Assembly: GCF_003233725.1 (NCBI RefSeq)
Contig: NZ_QKQV01000007.1
Coordinates: 1-64,000, forward strand
Origin: Mesonia sp. K7
Lineage (GTDB): Bacteria; Bacteroidota; Bacteroidia; Flavobacteriales; Flavobacteriaceae
Direction of reading: 5' to 3'
DNA length: 64,000 nt
In this document: positions 28,375 to 44,863 of the stretch, piece after piece
Position numbering within the stretch: position 1 is the stretch's first letter
How the letters are laid out: every line of letters begins with the position of its first letter
The notes under the pieces: model-generated
The model's database searches: none
What the model was told of the DNA's origin: nothing
The model's input: the letters and a program-made list of their open reading frames with translations, nothing else
Program-made: the position numbers and the translations under genes

Positions 28375-28446
28375 GGTCCGTTCGTCTAGGGGTTAGGACG
28401 CCAGGTTTTCATCCTGGTAACAGGGGTTCGATTCCCCTACGGACTA
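28375..28446 (+). tRNA. tRNA-Glu (anticodon TTC), copy 1
   Basis: A 72-base cloverleaf: acceptor GGTCCGT with ACGGACT, anticodon stem CCAGG/CCTGG with loop TTTTCAT (anticodon TTC), and T arm AGGGG-TTCGATT-CCCCT. The discriminator is A; CCA is not encoded. Copies 2 and 3 are identical. Confidence 0.97.
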
Positions 28447-28479
28447 CAAAAAATAAAGTTCATCAAATATTAAGTTAAT

Positions 28480-28551
28480 GGTCCGTTCGTCTAGGGGTTA
28501 GGACGCCAGGTTTTCATCCTGGTAACAGGGGTTCGATTCCCCTACGGACTA
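28480..28551 (+). tRNA. tRNA-Glu (anticodon TTC), copy 2
   Basis: Identical to the copy at 28375, shifted by 105 bases. Confidence 0.97.
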
Positions 28552-28584
28552 CAAAAAATAAAGTTCATCAAATATTAAGTTAAT

Positions 28585-28656
28585 GGTCCGTTCGTCTAGG
28601 GGTTAGGACGCCAGGTTTTCATCCTGGTAACAGGGGTTCGATTCCCCTACGGACTA
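28585..28656 (+). tRNA. tRNA-Glu (anticodon TTC), copy 3
   Basis: Identical to the copies at 28375 and 28480. The ribosomal protein gene rpsT starts 32 bases downstream, so read-through into rpsT is possible because no terminator intervenes. Confidence 0.97.
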
Positions 28657-41223: not shown

Positions 41224-41231
41224 TATTTTTG
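41224..41231 (+). promoter_or_regulatory. -7 box of clpS
   Basis: TATTTTTG, a full TAnnTTTG match, 19 bases before the ATG at 41250. It overlaps the in-frame TTG at 41229, which therefore cannot be the start. Confidence 0.6.
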
Positions 41232-41249
41232 AAAGGTAAACTTATCAAA

Positions 41250-41525
41250 ATGAGCGTACAAGAAGAAGTTTTAGAAAAAGTACTCACCGTCGAAAAGACA
41301 AATAAAGAATACGAGATTATTGTGTATAACGATGATTACAACACTTTTGATCACGTCATCGACACGCTTATTTCTACTTGTGACCATAATCCTATTCAGG
41401 CAGAGCAATGTACTTTACTTATTCATTATACAGGAAAATGTGCTGTAAAAACAGGAGAAATGAACGACTTAAAACCTAGATGTAGCAAAATTTTGGATGC
41501 TGGCATTACTGCAGAAATTTTATAA
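41250..41525 (+). CDS. clpS: ATP-dependent Clp protease adaptor ClpS
   Basis: Adaptor that hands N-degron substrates to ClpAP or ClpCP. The 91-aa product has the ClpS core YEIIVYNDDYNTFDHVIDTL, including the DDYNTF loop that binds the N-terminal residue, and the later CTLLIHYTGKCAVKTG. An in-frame TTG at 41229 was rejected because it lies in the -7 box; the ATG at 41250 gives the usual MSVQEE start. Its 3' end overlaps the convergent DUF4130 gene by six bases. Confidence 0.93.
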   Translation: MSVQEEVLEKVLTVEKTNKEYEIIVYNDDYNTFDHVIDTLISTCDHNPIQAEQCTLLIHYTGKCAVKTGEMNDLKPRCSKILDAGITAEIL

Positions 41526-42275
41526 ATATTTTTCACTTAAATACTTCCAATAGCGTTTAGGTACGTGTTGTTGGTGCAATTTCACGTTTTTTCGAGATTT
41601 GATATTCGTACTGTCAAAATAGTTTTTCCATAAGTGTTGGAATTCTATTTCTTCAGAGGTAAAAAACTCAGATGAAGATTGTAAAATATTTTTTGGTAAT
41701 TCTAAATGCACAATATTCACCTTTTCCAAATCATAGTAGATTCCATAATTTCGTTTTAAATCATAGATACACCATTTTTGATCGGCATAACGATTTTTAA
41801 AATGTTTCACATTGAGTGGAAGCACATTAAAATCAGGTTCTATCGTGGCAAAATAGATACCGTCTCTGGTTTTTCTAAAACGAACAAAAGCATCCATTCG
41901 GTGTTTTTCTCTACCTACTTTTTTTACCGTTTGTACCACTTCTAAAACTGCAGGATGAGCATAATCTTTAGTGATGTTTTTTGAGGAACTCATGGCGTGT
42001 CGGATGTATTGAAAAAGTGTGTTTTCAATTCCTTCTATTTCGCTTAAAAAAGCTCGGTAGATCTGGTTACAACCTGATTTCCCACAATTTTTTTCTAATT
42101 TTTTCCAGACTCGTTTGGCCTTTTCTTGTGAAGTAAAAACGGTCTCACTTTCTTCAAAAAAACTTTCTATAAATTGGTGATGCTTTAGAATTTTAGGATT
42201 GTTACATCTTTGTTCGTAAGCAGAAAACACCGTGGTTAAAAACCCCTCGAAAGAGGCGTCATAGATGAAAATCAT
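41520..42275 (-). CDS. DUF4130 protein, partner of the radical SAM DNA-linked protein (TIGR03915-type)
   Basis: A 251-aa protein beginning IFIYDASFEGFLTTVFSAYE, the hallmark start of the DUF4130 (TIGR03915) family, with the central RMDAFVRFRKTRDGIYFATIEPDFNVLPL and a C-terminal YWKYLSEKYL. In many bacteria this domain is fused to a uracil-DNA-glycosylase-like (UdgX) domain. Here the protein ends after DUF4130, with no glycosylase. It starts seven bases after the stop of the radical SAM gene, with which it forms an operon. Family annotation suggests DNA metabolism; the reaction is unknown. Confidence 0.88.
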   Translation of the reverse strand: MIFIYDASFEGFLTTVFSAYEQRCNNPKILKHHQFIESFFEESETVFTSQEKAKRVWKKLEKNCGKSGCNQIYRAFLSEIEGIENTLFQYIRHAMSSSKNITKDYAHPAVLEVVQTVKKVGREKHRMDAFVRFRKTRDGIYFATIEPDFNVLPLNVKHFKNRYADQKWCIYDLKRNYGIYYDLEKVNIVHLELPKNILQSSSEFFTSEEIEFQHLWKNYFDSTNIKSRKNVKLHQQHVPKRYWKYLSEKYL

Positions 42276-42282
42276 AGTTTTT

Positions 42283-43569
42283 TTAAATACTTATTAATTG
42301 ATCATGTTTATCGAACAAATTCAGTTGGTTGCCATAGGTATTTCTGAATTTACTTTGTGAATTTTGTAAAATCAAATTCTTTATTGAGGCAGCAGACAAA
42401 TCTCTTTTTTCGAAATCTCGAGAATCACACACCATAAAATACCTAGCTCGATTTAAGGCAACACCAATTTTTTTTAAATGTTCCCAATTAAGGTTTCTGT
42501 ACTTTCTGGCACCTAATATTTTATAGACAGATTTCATCCCAAGCCCAGGAATACGAGCTAACATTTGCTTATCGGCTTTGTTGACATCTACTGGGAAAAG
42601 GTGTAAATTTCGCAGTGCCCAACTCAGTTTTGGATCGACATCACTATCGAGGTTAGGATGCTCTTTATTAAGTAATTCCTCAATCGAAAACCCATAAAAA
42701 CGCATGAGCCAATCGGCTTGGTAAAGTCGGTTTTCTCGTAATAAAGGCACATCGGTACCGATAGACGGTAATCTAGGGTCGTAACTAATGGGAATATAGC
42801 CAGAATAATATACACGTTTCATCTGGTATTTTTTGTAGAAATATGCAGCGGTGTACATTACCTGTGCATCGGTCTCGTTGGTAGCTCCCACAATCATTTG
42901 GGTGCTTTGCCCTGCAGGAGCATACTTTGGCGTGCTTTTAATGATTTTCTTTTCTGCTTTGTAGCGTATAATTTCATTTTTCACTTTGTTCATGGGTTGC
43001 AGAAAATCTTTTCGATCTTTATCGGGAGCTAAAAGCTTTAAGCCTTCCCTTGTCGGAATTTCAATATTTACCGAAAGGCGATCGGCATAAAGTCCCGCTT
43101 CAAACATGAGTTCATCGCTCGCTCCTGGAATTGATTTTAAATGGATATAACCATTGTAATTTTCTTCTAAACGCAGTTTTTTAGCAACTTGCACCAAGCG
43201 TTCCATTGTATGATCTGGACTTTTAAAGATACCCGAACTCAAAAAAAGTCCTTCGATATAATTTCTGCGATAAAAGTGAATGGTTAAATCGACTACTTCT
43301 TGAACTTTAAACGCTGCTCTTTTAATATCGTTACTTTTTCTTGTCACACAATAAGCACAATCAAAAATACAGTGATTGGTCAGTAAAATTTTAAGCAAAG
43401 AAACGCAACGACCATCTTCTGTATAGGTATGACAAATACCCGAACCACTTGAGTCACCTAAACCCTTATTGGTGTTTTTTCGCTTACTTCCGCTGCTGGA
43501 ACAGGAAACATCATATTTTGCTGCATCTGCAAGAATATTTAATTTCTCTTTTATTCTTTCGTAATTCAT
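42283..43569 (-). CDS. Putative DNA repair/modification radical SAM protein (TIGR03916-type)
   Basis: A 428-aa radical SAM enzyme. The 4Fe-4S motif C-x3-C-x2-C is in NHCIFDCAYCVTRKSN (near residues 66-81), preceded by an N-terminal motif with two cysteines (YDVSCSSSGS, GSGICHTYTEDGRC). The C-terminal part holds a helix-hairpin-helix-like DNA-binding unit (MLARIPGLGMKSVYKILGARKY, about residues 336-357). The family is always found with DUF4130 and is annotated as DNA-linked, but its chemistry is unproven. Its -7 box and candidate operators lie in the divergent gap to the XRE-S24 regulator. Confidence 0.9.
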   Translation of the reverse strand: MNYERIKEKLNILADAAKYDVSCSSSGSKRKNTNKGLGDSSGSGICHTYTEDGRCVSLLKILLTNHCIFDCAYCVTRKSNDIKRAAFKVQEVVDLTIHFYRRNYIEGLFLSSGIFKSPDHTMERLVQVAKKLRLEENYNGYIHLKSIPGASDELMFEAGLYADRLSVNIEIPTREGLKLLAPDKDRKDFLQPMNKVKNEIIRYKAEKKIIKSTPKYAPAGQSTQMIVGATNETDAQVMYTAAYFYKKYQMKRVYYSGYIPISYDPRLPSIGTDVPLLRENRLYQADWLMRFYGFSIEELLNKEHPNLDSDVDPKLSWALRNLHLFPVDVNKADKQMLARIPGLGMKSVYKILGARKYRNLNWEHLKKIGVALNRARYFMVCDSRDFEKRDLSAASIKNLILQNSQSKFRNTYGNQLNLFDKHDQLISI

Positions 43570-43585
43570 ATATTTGGATATAATA

Positions 43586-43593
43586 CAAACTTA
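43586..43593 (-). promoter_or_regulatory. -7 box of the radical SAM-DUF4130 operon
   Basis: Minus-strand TAAGTTTG matches TAnnTTTG, 16 bases upstream of the radical SAM ATG. The -33 position falls inside the dyad at 43610-43627. Confidence 0.6.
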
Positions 43594-43648
43594 TGGAAAT
43601 ATTCTTTTGTTTAGGAAAAAATCCGAATATTTAGGATAAATTCCTATA
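43594..43648. promoter_or_regulatory. Candidate operator array between the radical SAM operon and the XRE-S24 gene
   Basis: Two near-identical dyads fit TTTAGGA-N5-TCC: one at 43610-43624 and one at 43630-43644, exactly 20 bases apart. A weaker GGA-N5-TC copy at 43595-43604 is 19 bases further left. All lie between two divergent -7 boxes, so a dimeric repressor could shut both promoters. The obvious candidate binder is the adjacent XRE-S24 protein; that is inference. Confidence 0.6.
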
Positions 43649-43654
43649 AATTGT

Positions 43655-43662
43655 TATTTTTG
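43655..43662 (+). promoter_or_regulatory. -7 box of the XRE-S24 regulator
   Basis: TATTTTTG, a full match to TAnnTTTG, ends only four bases before the ATG at 43667, so the transcript is predicted to be leaderless or nearly so. Confidence 0.6.
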
Positions 43663-43666
43663 AATT

Positions 43667-44428
43667 ATGGAACTACCAATAGAGACCCTTCGTTTTAAAG
43701 AAATTAGAGAAGAGAACAATTACACCCAAAGTGATTTTGCAGATTTACTAGGAGTAAAAAACTCTACGGCAGATATAGAAAGAGGCCGCACTAAACTGCC
43801 AGGCTATGTGGTCATGGGATTGTTGAAACATTTTCAAATCAATCCTTTATGGCTGTTTGGCGAAAGTCATCAAAAGCAGATTCCGTTGAATAGAATTGAT
43901 ACCTTGCCAAAATTCATCACGCTTAATTCAGAAGAAAATGAGAATATGTTGTTGGTGAACCAAAAAGCGGCTGCAGGTTATCCGCATAATGTGCAAGATG
44001 CTCATTTTTACCAACAATTGCCCGCTTTCGATATGCCTTTACCGCAGTTTAGAAATGCCACTTACCGTGGATTTCAAATAGAAGGGGATAGCATGTTGCC
44101 CGACTTTTATCCAGAAGATTGGGTGTTGGCAAAAGCGATCTCGAGTTTGGACGAAGCCAGCGATCATAAAGTATATGTATTTGTGTTATATGATACAGTC
44201 GTCATCAAAAAATTACAGAAACTCTCCGACCCTTCAAAAATTCAACTGATTTCTTTAAACAAAGAATATGCTCCTTTTGAAATCGAGGTTTCTGATATCC
44301 AGGAAATTTGGCAAGTGAGTAGTAAGCTCACGTTTAATCTTTCTAGCCATTCTGAAAATAGTGTGCTTCGAGAATTACAAGCCTCGATGGAAGAGCTGAA
44401 ACAGCAGTTCAATCAAATAAGAAAATAA
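43667..44428 (+). CDS. XRE-family regulator with S24 (LexA-like) peptidase domain
   Basis: A 253-aa repressor-like protein. Residues about 6-65 are an XRE helix-turn-helix (NNYTQSDFADLLGVKNSTADIERG). Residues about 95-210 are a LexA/CI-type S24 domain with a possible self-cleavage site Ala103-Gly104 (KAAAGYP), catalytic Ser142 in EGDSM and Lys181 in TVVIKKL. The spacings (38 and 39 residues) are close to those in E. coli LexA. The C-terminus is a short helix, perhaps a coiled coil. It is divergent from the radical SAM operon across the dyad array. It could instead be a non-cleaving metabolic regulator, but the AG bond argues for autolysis. Confidence 0.9.
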   Translation: MELPIETLRFKEIREENNYTQSDFADLLGVKNSTADIERGRTKLPGYVVMGLLKHFQINPLWLFGESHQKQIPLNRIDTLPKFITLNSEENENMLLVNQKAAAGYPHNVQDAHFYQQLPAFDMPLPQFRNATYRGFQIEGDSMLPDFYPEDWVLAKAISSLDEASDHKVYVFVLYDTVVIKKLQKLSDPSKIQLISLNKEYAPFEIEVSDIQEIWQVSSKLTFNLSSHSENSVLRELQASMEELKQQFNQIRK

Positions 44429-44461: not shown

Positions 44462-44466
44462 AATAG

Positions 44467-44863
44467 TGGAGTCGGGGAGACTCGAACTCCCGTCCTAACA
44501 AGCAACTCAACAGCTTTCTACACGTTTAGTTTTTATTTGGGTTTTCGAGAAAATGCTGGCAAAAAACTTCCTACATTTTCCTTAACCTTTATGGTTTAAG
44601 TAGCCCTTAAAGGTGTCGAACTACCTAGATTTATTTTACCGGTGCCTCTTTGTAGAACGCCATAAATCAAGGCTTTCTAGAGACATCTTGGCTCTCTACC
44701 TTGTAGAGACTAAGCAAATCTTACTATGATTCAGATTATGCAGCCAAGGCGTAGTTATTCTCGCCGTTTAAAAAAGTGTGAAACATGAGATTAACGAGCT
44801 ATGTTCCGGCGCTCGACGTGCTTACGATTCAGTTTTACTCGCAGTCAAAACCAAGTCGACCCC
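44467..44863 (-). ncRNA. ssrA: Transfer-messenger RNA (tmRNA)
   Basis: A minus-strand RNA of about 397 bases that rescues stalled ribosomes. The ends form the tRNA-like acceptor GGGGTCG with CGACTCC, and the 3' part has a T arm (GGGAGTTCGAGTCTCCC-like). The tag reading frame is at 44736-44765 and reads GENNYALAA then TAA, with GGC as resume codon. The tag fits the Bacteroidota type. CCA is not encoded. The exact ends are read from the acceptor pairing. Confidence 0.95.

Follow-up and report, generated by a model that had tools for sequence, protein, structure and literature searches.

A regulator gene that stands back to back with an enzyme operon raises the question of how far the regulator reaches: to itself and its neighbour, or to a wider set of genes. 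Such an arrangement, a self-cleaving-type repressor facing a radical SAM-DUF4130 operon, lies in a 64,000-nucleotide stretch of the Mesonia sp. K7 genome (hereafter the window), for which a preliminary description had proposed a small damage-responsive switch that would induce the operon together with its own regulator. We instead favour, with a probability of roughly 0.9, the reading that the locus is an autoregulated SOS master repressor, a non-canonical LexA of the GGA-N5-TCC group, facing one of the operons that it controls.

The locus and its operators

The features of the locus, with their coordinates in the window, are as follows.

41229-41525, + strand: clpS, from the ORF list and a family match; first gene of the left-to-right layout
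41520-42275, - strand: DUF4130/TIGR03915 gene, operon gene 2, 251 aa, from profile matches
42283-43569, - strand: radical SAM gene, TIGR03916 (rSAM_link_UDG), operon gene 1, 428 aa, from profile matches
43576-43586, no strand assigned: second one-mismatch GGA-N5-TCC site, GGATATAATAC, from a pattern match
43593-43586, - strand: -7-like element TAAGTTTG of the radical SAM-DUF4130 operon, a TAnnTTTG match
43595-43605, no strand assigned: degenerate box 3, GGAAATATTCT, one mismatch, broken arm; proximal to the radical SAM gene, at -36 to -26
43614-43624, no strand assigned: SOS box 1, GGAAAAAATCC, a perfect GGA-N5-TCC pattern match
43634-43644, no strand assigned: SOS box 2, GGATAAATTCC, perfect GGA-N5-TCC, lexA-proximal, at -33 to -23 relative to the start of lexA
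43655-43662, + strand: -7-like element TATTTTTG of lexA, a TAnnTTTG match
43667-44428, + strand: regulator gene (lexA), HTH_3 plus Peptidase_S24 by Pfam matches, 253 aa, very probably a non-canonical (Bacteroidetes-type) LexA
44464-44863, - strand: tmRNA gene, directly 3' of lexA and convergent with it

The divergent layout is as it had been described, except that the gap between the radical SAM and regulator genes measures 97 bp (43570-43666) and not 98. The DUF4130 gene, separated from the radical SAM gene by 7 bp on the same strand, lies just beyond the interval that the description covered (42283-44428). Elsewhere in the window, three tRNA genes of equal score are spaced at 105 bp (28375-28656), perhaps one unit tandemly repeated.

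Inspection of the gap confirmed a -7-like box (consensus TAnnTTTG) for each direction; among 17 directly divergent genomes such a box was present on the radical SAM side in 16 and on the lexA side in 13, as compared to 0.11 per gap and strand in shuffled gaps. Only 4 bases separate the end of the lexA box from the ATG, which predicts a very short leader. The dyads noticed between the two promoters proved to be two perfect GGA-N5-TCC boxes accompanied by one-mismatch copies, with start-to-start spacings of 19 and 20 bp for the boxes at 43595, 43614 and 43634. Searching up to 250 bp from the regulator gene revealed GGA-N5-TCC at 43 of 43 loci (mean 2.02 versus 0.017 in letter shuffles), a set that includes the window's own locus, counts one species twice (L027 and L038) and is without L044, a weak locus from Bacilli with no usable match. 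Twelve of 12 further loci likewise had at least one such box within this distance, giving 55 of 55; together these loci represent every one of the 42 relatives in which a close ortholog occurs (our genome included), as well as 13 contig records.

Analysis of the regulator itself revealed a number of clues to its class: firstly, it matches both HTH_3 (30.1 bits) and Peptidase_S24 (48.1 bits) over their cut-offs; secondly, the Ala103-Gly104 cleavage site and the Ser142/Lys181 dyad are invariant in all 51 distinct regulator sequences, in agreement with the earlier remark that the residues for RecA-type autocleavage are kept; thirdly, no regulator match to the classical LexA model TIGR00498 was found at E up to 0.001, the N-terminal domain being HTH_3. 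The S24 matches across this genome are two, this regulator and an UmuD, which extends to the whole genome the absence of a classical LexA reported for the window. A sequence search of the regulator against solved structures gave no match at E up to 0.01. Orthologs of at least 45% identity occur in 42 of 149 relatives (our genome included), among them all 16 genomes of the genus, and the regulators of three Salegentibacter species are 65–67% identical to that of the window. On the basis of this identity and of the motif, the regulator very probably belongs to the GGA-N5-TCC group of Bacteroidetes non-canonical LexA proteins, although the S. agarivorans protein with published binding is not among the three Salegentibacter records compared.

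The LexA proteins of Bacteroidetes have been described as two groups of CI-like S24 repressors that bind either GGA-N5-TCC or CTAA-N5-TTAG (PMC8565304). In that work, the S. agarivorans regulator bound GGA-N5-TCC by EMSA and was mitomycin-induced, substitutions in the motif arms abolished EMSA binding, and recA of S. agarivorans was without induction (PMC8565304). The window's regulator shares with the published GGA group the CI-like HTH_3 and S24 domains, the Ala-Gly and Ser/Lys residues, a GGA-N5-TCC box at its own promoter, targets of the umuDC and splB type, and occurrence in Flavobacteriaceae. It departs from that group in that both recA and dinB of this genome lack a box, and in that the repressor gene is faced directly by the radical SAM-DUF4130 operon, a layout that we did not find stated in the text of PMC8565304 consulted here. 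The switch is therefore not new, as the regulator class, the motif and mitomycin induction had already been published there, and very probably also the operon's place in the regulon; the present regulator is one more well-supported case of that class.

The CI-like HTH_3 domain, together with the phage origin that PMC8565304 proposes for the family, would also suit the repressor of a prophage or mobile element carrying the operon as cargo. Such a repressor is at odds with the close orthologs in 42 of the 149 relatives and throughout the genus, and with a core gene context in which clpS borders the far end of the operon in the window, and lexA directly in three relatives, and in which the next gene is that for tmRNA; by eye, moreover, no phage gene was recognised among the ORFs of 37.5–51 kb. 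We rejected this explanation, which is extremely unlikely, on the strength of the orthologs and the clpS context.

For the LexA reading, we propose that dimers of the repressor occupy two or three of the GGA-N5-TCC boxes, which are spaced by about two helical turns and lie just upstream of both -7-like boxes, so that lexA and the radical SAM-DUF4130 operon would be repressed together. The operators are seen in the sequence, and we infer repression from the tested Salegentibacter ortholog. Upon DNA damage, RecA filaments would be expected to stimulate cleavage at Ala103-Gly104 by Ser142/Lys181, residues that can be read directly from the sequence, and cleavage would free umuDC, a splB-like gene and the radical SAM-DUF4130 operon from repression. 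Partnered by DUF4130, the radical SAM/HhH protein would then probably act on damaged DNA by radical chemistry.

Regulon sites and pairing across relatives

Scanning the genome for the box with a W spacer returned 36 sites as compared to 35 for a reversed control pattern. With no enrichment by count, a lone box is weak evidence, and we therefore judged each box on its position and conservation. Eight of the 36 are intergenic and 28 fall inside ORFs under a rule of at least 60 aa, which can hide intergenic boxes behind chance ORFs; five of these 28 also sit 18–184 bp before a start. Two of the intergenic boxes are those of the gap, and one each precedes umuD (followed by umuC), a radical SAM gene of the PA0069 family, which we take to be splB-like, and a tyrosine recombinase gene; of the remainder, one is flanked by two other genes, 106 and 151 bp away, and two are without a nearby start. 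Of the 16 genomes of the genus, 13 carry the splB-like gene, all 13 with the box before it, and umuD is preceded by the box at 11 of 11 loci in 10 genomes (0.008 in shuffles). For recA, by contrast, a search from -300 into the gene that tolerated one mismatch found no site, nor was there a perfect GGA-N5-TCC site at the dinB locus.

These data bear on whether the regulator controls itself and the facing operon alone. The gap does hold two of the genome's 36 boxes, 28 of which are inside ORFs, and compact divergent units of this kind exist in Francisella, where FddR is likewise an S24 repressor with a divergent damage-regulated gene (PMC13148647). FddR, however, forms a clade apart with lambdoid phage repressors, has another partner gene and acts in a small network of fddR units (PMC13148647). 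A private two-gene circuit does not account for boxes kept genus-wide before umuD and the splB-like gene; we rejected it on these grounds and consider it very unlikely. Of the switch first proposed, the self-cleaving-type repressor, the operators between both promoters and the DNA-repair-type operon all stand, while its restriction to two genes does not. The observation was sound and its logic largely right, and it is mostly explained already by the published LexA class.

The radical SAM protein (TIGR03916) is found in 35 of the 149 relatives and DUF4130 in 41; all 35 radical SAM genomes also have DUF4130, on the same strand within 1.2 kb in 34. Among the 25 genomes with both the radical SAM gene and a close LexA ortholog, the two are directly divergent in 17, separated by one gene in four and apart in four. 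The pairing that a synteny survey had been suggested to check is thus conserved, directly in 17 of 25 and with one gene between in four. The intervening gene is an MFS transporter in L002 and L007, both of which were scanned, and the other two look alike. In three loci (L014, L015 and L018), clpS immediately precedes lexA, as though the radical SAM-DUF4130 pair had either been excised or never arrived there; two of these three genomes (G005 and G010) carry the pair elsewhere, with its own box kept.

Eight radical SAM promoters in this set do not directly face lexA, and six of them (G002, G005, G009, G010, G013 and G014, each from the genus to which the window belongs) retain one perfect box at -36 to -41. 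The other two genomes with this LexA, G025 and G077, lack a box in the 250 bp next to the radical SAM gene; so does Aquimarina pacifica (L040, outside the 25-genome set), in which that gene is 573 bp from lexA. In the 10 radical SAM genomes without a close LexA ortholog, the 250 bp searched contained neither CTAA-N5-TTAG nor a proximal GGA box, a single GGA site being at -186. The resulting contrast, 23 of 25 versus 0 of 10 (Fisher 4e-7), owes part of its strength to shared gaps and kinship, and the six non-facing promoters, though from a single genus, are the cleaner evidence for the predicted control of the radical SAM gene. In the window itself the box proximal to this gene, at the position where those six promoters have their perfect box, is degenerate, so that in this genome the middle box may be what controls the gene. 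Together, these comparisons argue on independent grounds for SOS control of the radical SAM-DUF4130 pair.

The radical SAM and DUF4130 proteins

The family assignments of the putative DNA repair or modification pair held up: the radical SAM protein scores 672 bits against TIGR03916 (cut-off 343.5), and the DUF4130 protein 281.5 bits against TIGR03915 (cut-off 112.25) and 185 against Pfam DUF4130 (cut-off 27). A literature search under the names of these models found no paper. As in the known TIGR03916/TIGR03915 pair, both proteins are far over cut-off and encoded in a two-gene operon; unlike in that pair, the DUF4130 proteins of this clade have no detected uracil-DNA glycosylase (UDG) domain. 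We aligned 33 of 38 distinct DUF4130 and 24 of 35 distinct radical SAM sequences, near-copies having been dropped. In all 24 radical SAM proteins the CxxxCxxC motif (C67/C71/C74) is invariant, as are C23, C46 and C55, which, judging from this conservation, could bind a second cluster or metal. An HhH model likewise gave a match in every one of the 24 (E of 0.1 or less), the motif of the window's protein being at 327–356 and below the Pfam cut-off. Comparison of the radical SAM sequence with solved structures gave a weak RuvA match, and its structure model is poor (pLDDT 62). Spore photoproduct lyase (SplB) is a radical SAM enzyme in a DNA-repair context; the window's protein is alike in both respects but has no SPL model among its NCBIfam matches, and has in addition the extra invariant cysteines and the HhH motif.

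With SOS control retained, the pair might make or remove a DNA modification, such as a hypermodified base, or serve a defence function, rather than repair lesions. TIGR03916 is itself named 'DNA modification/repair', the distribution is patchy (35 of 149), and a 2013 figure legend suggests that associated enzymes might modify thymines (PMC3765255). SOS control and the HhH match in 24 of 24 proteins fit repair, and no adjacent defence or modification gene was recognised by eye; we regard modification as possible, if unlikely, and lesion repair as the preferred function.

We take COG1573 and COG4277 to be DUF4130 and this radical SAM protein, respectively. An operon labelled COG1573-COG4277 is listed in the LexA regulon of PMC8565304 with a base-excision reading, and is very probably the pair described here; if so, that reading misfits this clade. 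With an E limit of 1, the 33 DUF4130 proteins matched 30 Pfam families, and none of the 25 listed is a UDG family; the full Pfam table of the window's protein has none either, and the sole PF03167 match of the genome sits elsewhere, on contig C22. The absence of the domain from the families listed argues against a glycosylase in this clade, and base excision by a UDG, which the COG label would suggest, was rejected on this account as highly improbable.

DUF4130 had no match to solved structures by sequence at E up to 1. Its structure model is good (pLDDT 84.7) apart from a low-confidence C-terminal tail, and Foldseek returned PDB and viral-library top matches mostly of DHH/RecJ/Cdc45 type, none at E of 0.001 or below and with TM up to about 0.42. 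DHH phosphoesterases are marked by a DHH motif with catalytic Asp and His; this motif is not evident in DUF4130, and the model offers a hint of a DHH-type fold.

Six genomes (G033, G041, G045, G047, G052 and G070) have a DUF4130 match without a TIGR03916 match, and all six of these orphan genes are transcribed away from lexA, three or four boxes lying in the space that separates them. From a set of 17 tail columns that are conserved across 27 partnered proteins, the orphans keep 0–13, and seven left-out partnered controls 16–17. Decay extends beyond the tail, with corresponding figures of 21–30 of 39 and 32–36 of 36–38 for conserved core columns, 1–5 and 7–9 of nine for conserved columns at 200–225, and 12–15 of 16 and 11–12 of 12–14 for the N-terminal domain. 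We read this as a radical SAM-dependent constraint on DUF4130 that weighs most heavily on the tail; the low confidence of the tail in the model is as would be expected of a disordered docking segment. On the DUF4130 tree the partner-loss label needs three changes, and several orphan genes are on long branches; given the long-branch flag (L116 with L040), three separate changes are a count on one tree and no proof. Orphan genes of this kind, still next to lexA and with their greatest decay at the C-terminal tail, are those of loci L021, L028, L029, L030, L116 and L118. More speculatively, DUF4130 may be a dead DHH/RecJ-like scaffold whose tail (~226–251) docks the radical SAM protein, with orphans kept under LexA for an enzyme-free SOS role, a proposal that we hold to be doubtful. 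The decay of the tail in genomes that lack the radical SAM gene makes it a feature open to testing. Beyond the published work, the additions made here are modest: the conserved divergent pairing, the boxes at split radical SAM promoters, the lack of a UDG domain and the decay of orphan DUF4130.

A recombinase box and integron-like arrays

LexA controls integron integrases in other systems. In this genome an SOS-type box, GGATTATTTCC (G000:C22:224609-224619), lies 55 bp upstream of the tyrosine recombinase gene mentioned above. The other 29 recombinase homologs examined have no box within 90 bp of the start, with one at -92 and four at -205 to -234; we accordingly did not retain the recombinase as a regulon member, and its box is possibly due to chance.

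The recombinase (G000:C22:224664-225860, L126; ~400 aa) scores 197.7 bits against TIGR02249 and that of L157 213.4 bits, both below the cut-off of 265; at E 1e-60 the recombinase is matched in 44 of the 149 relatives. At L157 it is followed mostly by same-strand ORFs separated by ~130-bp attC-like repeats. Matches to these repeats, counted by a regular expression on one strand with overlaps included, number 26 at L157, 11 at L158, 18 at L159, four at our genome's L156 and two at L161; in nine of 30 recombinase loci the sequence runs out no more than 900 bp past the gene. Folding gave z of -4.8 to -5.8 for three of four repeats and -1.6 for the fourth, as compared to 0.8 for a repeat-free control stretch just behind our genome's own recombinase. 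Judged from these sequence features, the Flavobacteriaceae arrays are integron-like, and integrons have already been listed in Bacteroidota (PMC8618304).
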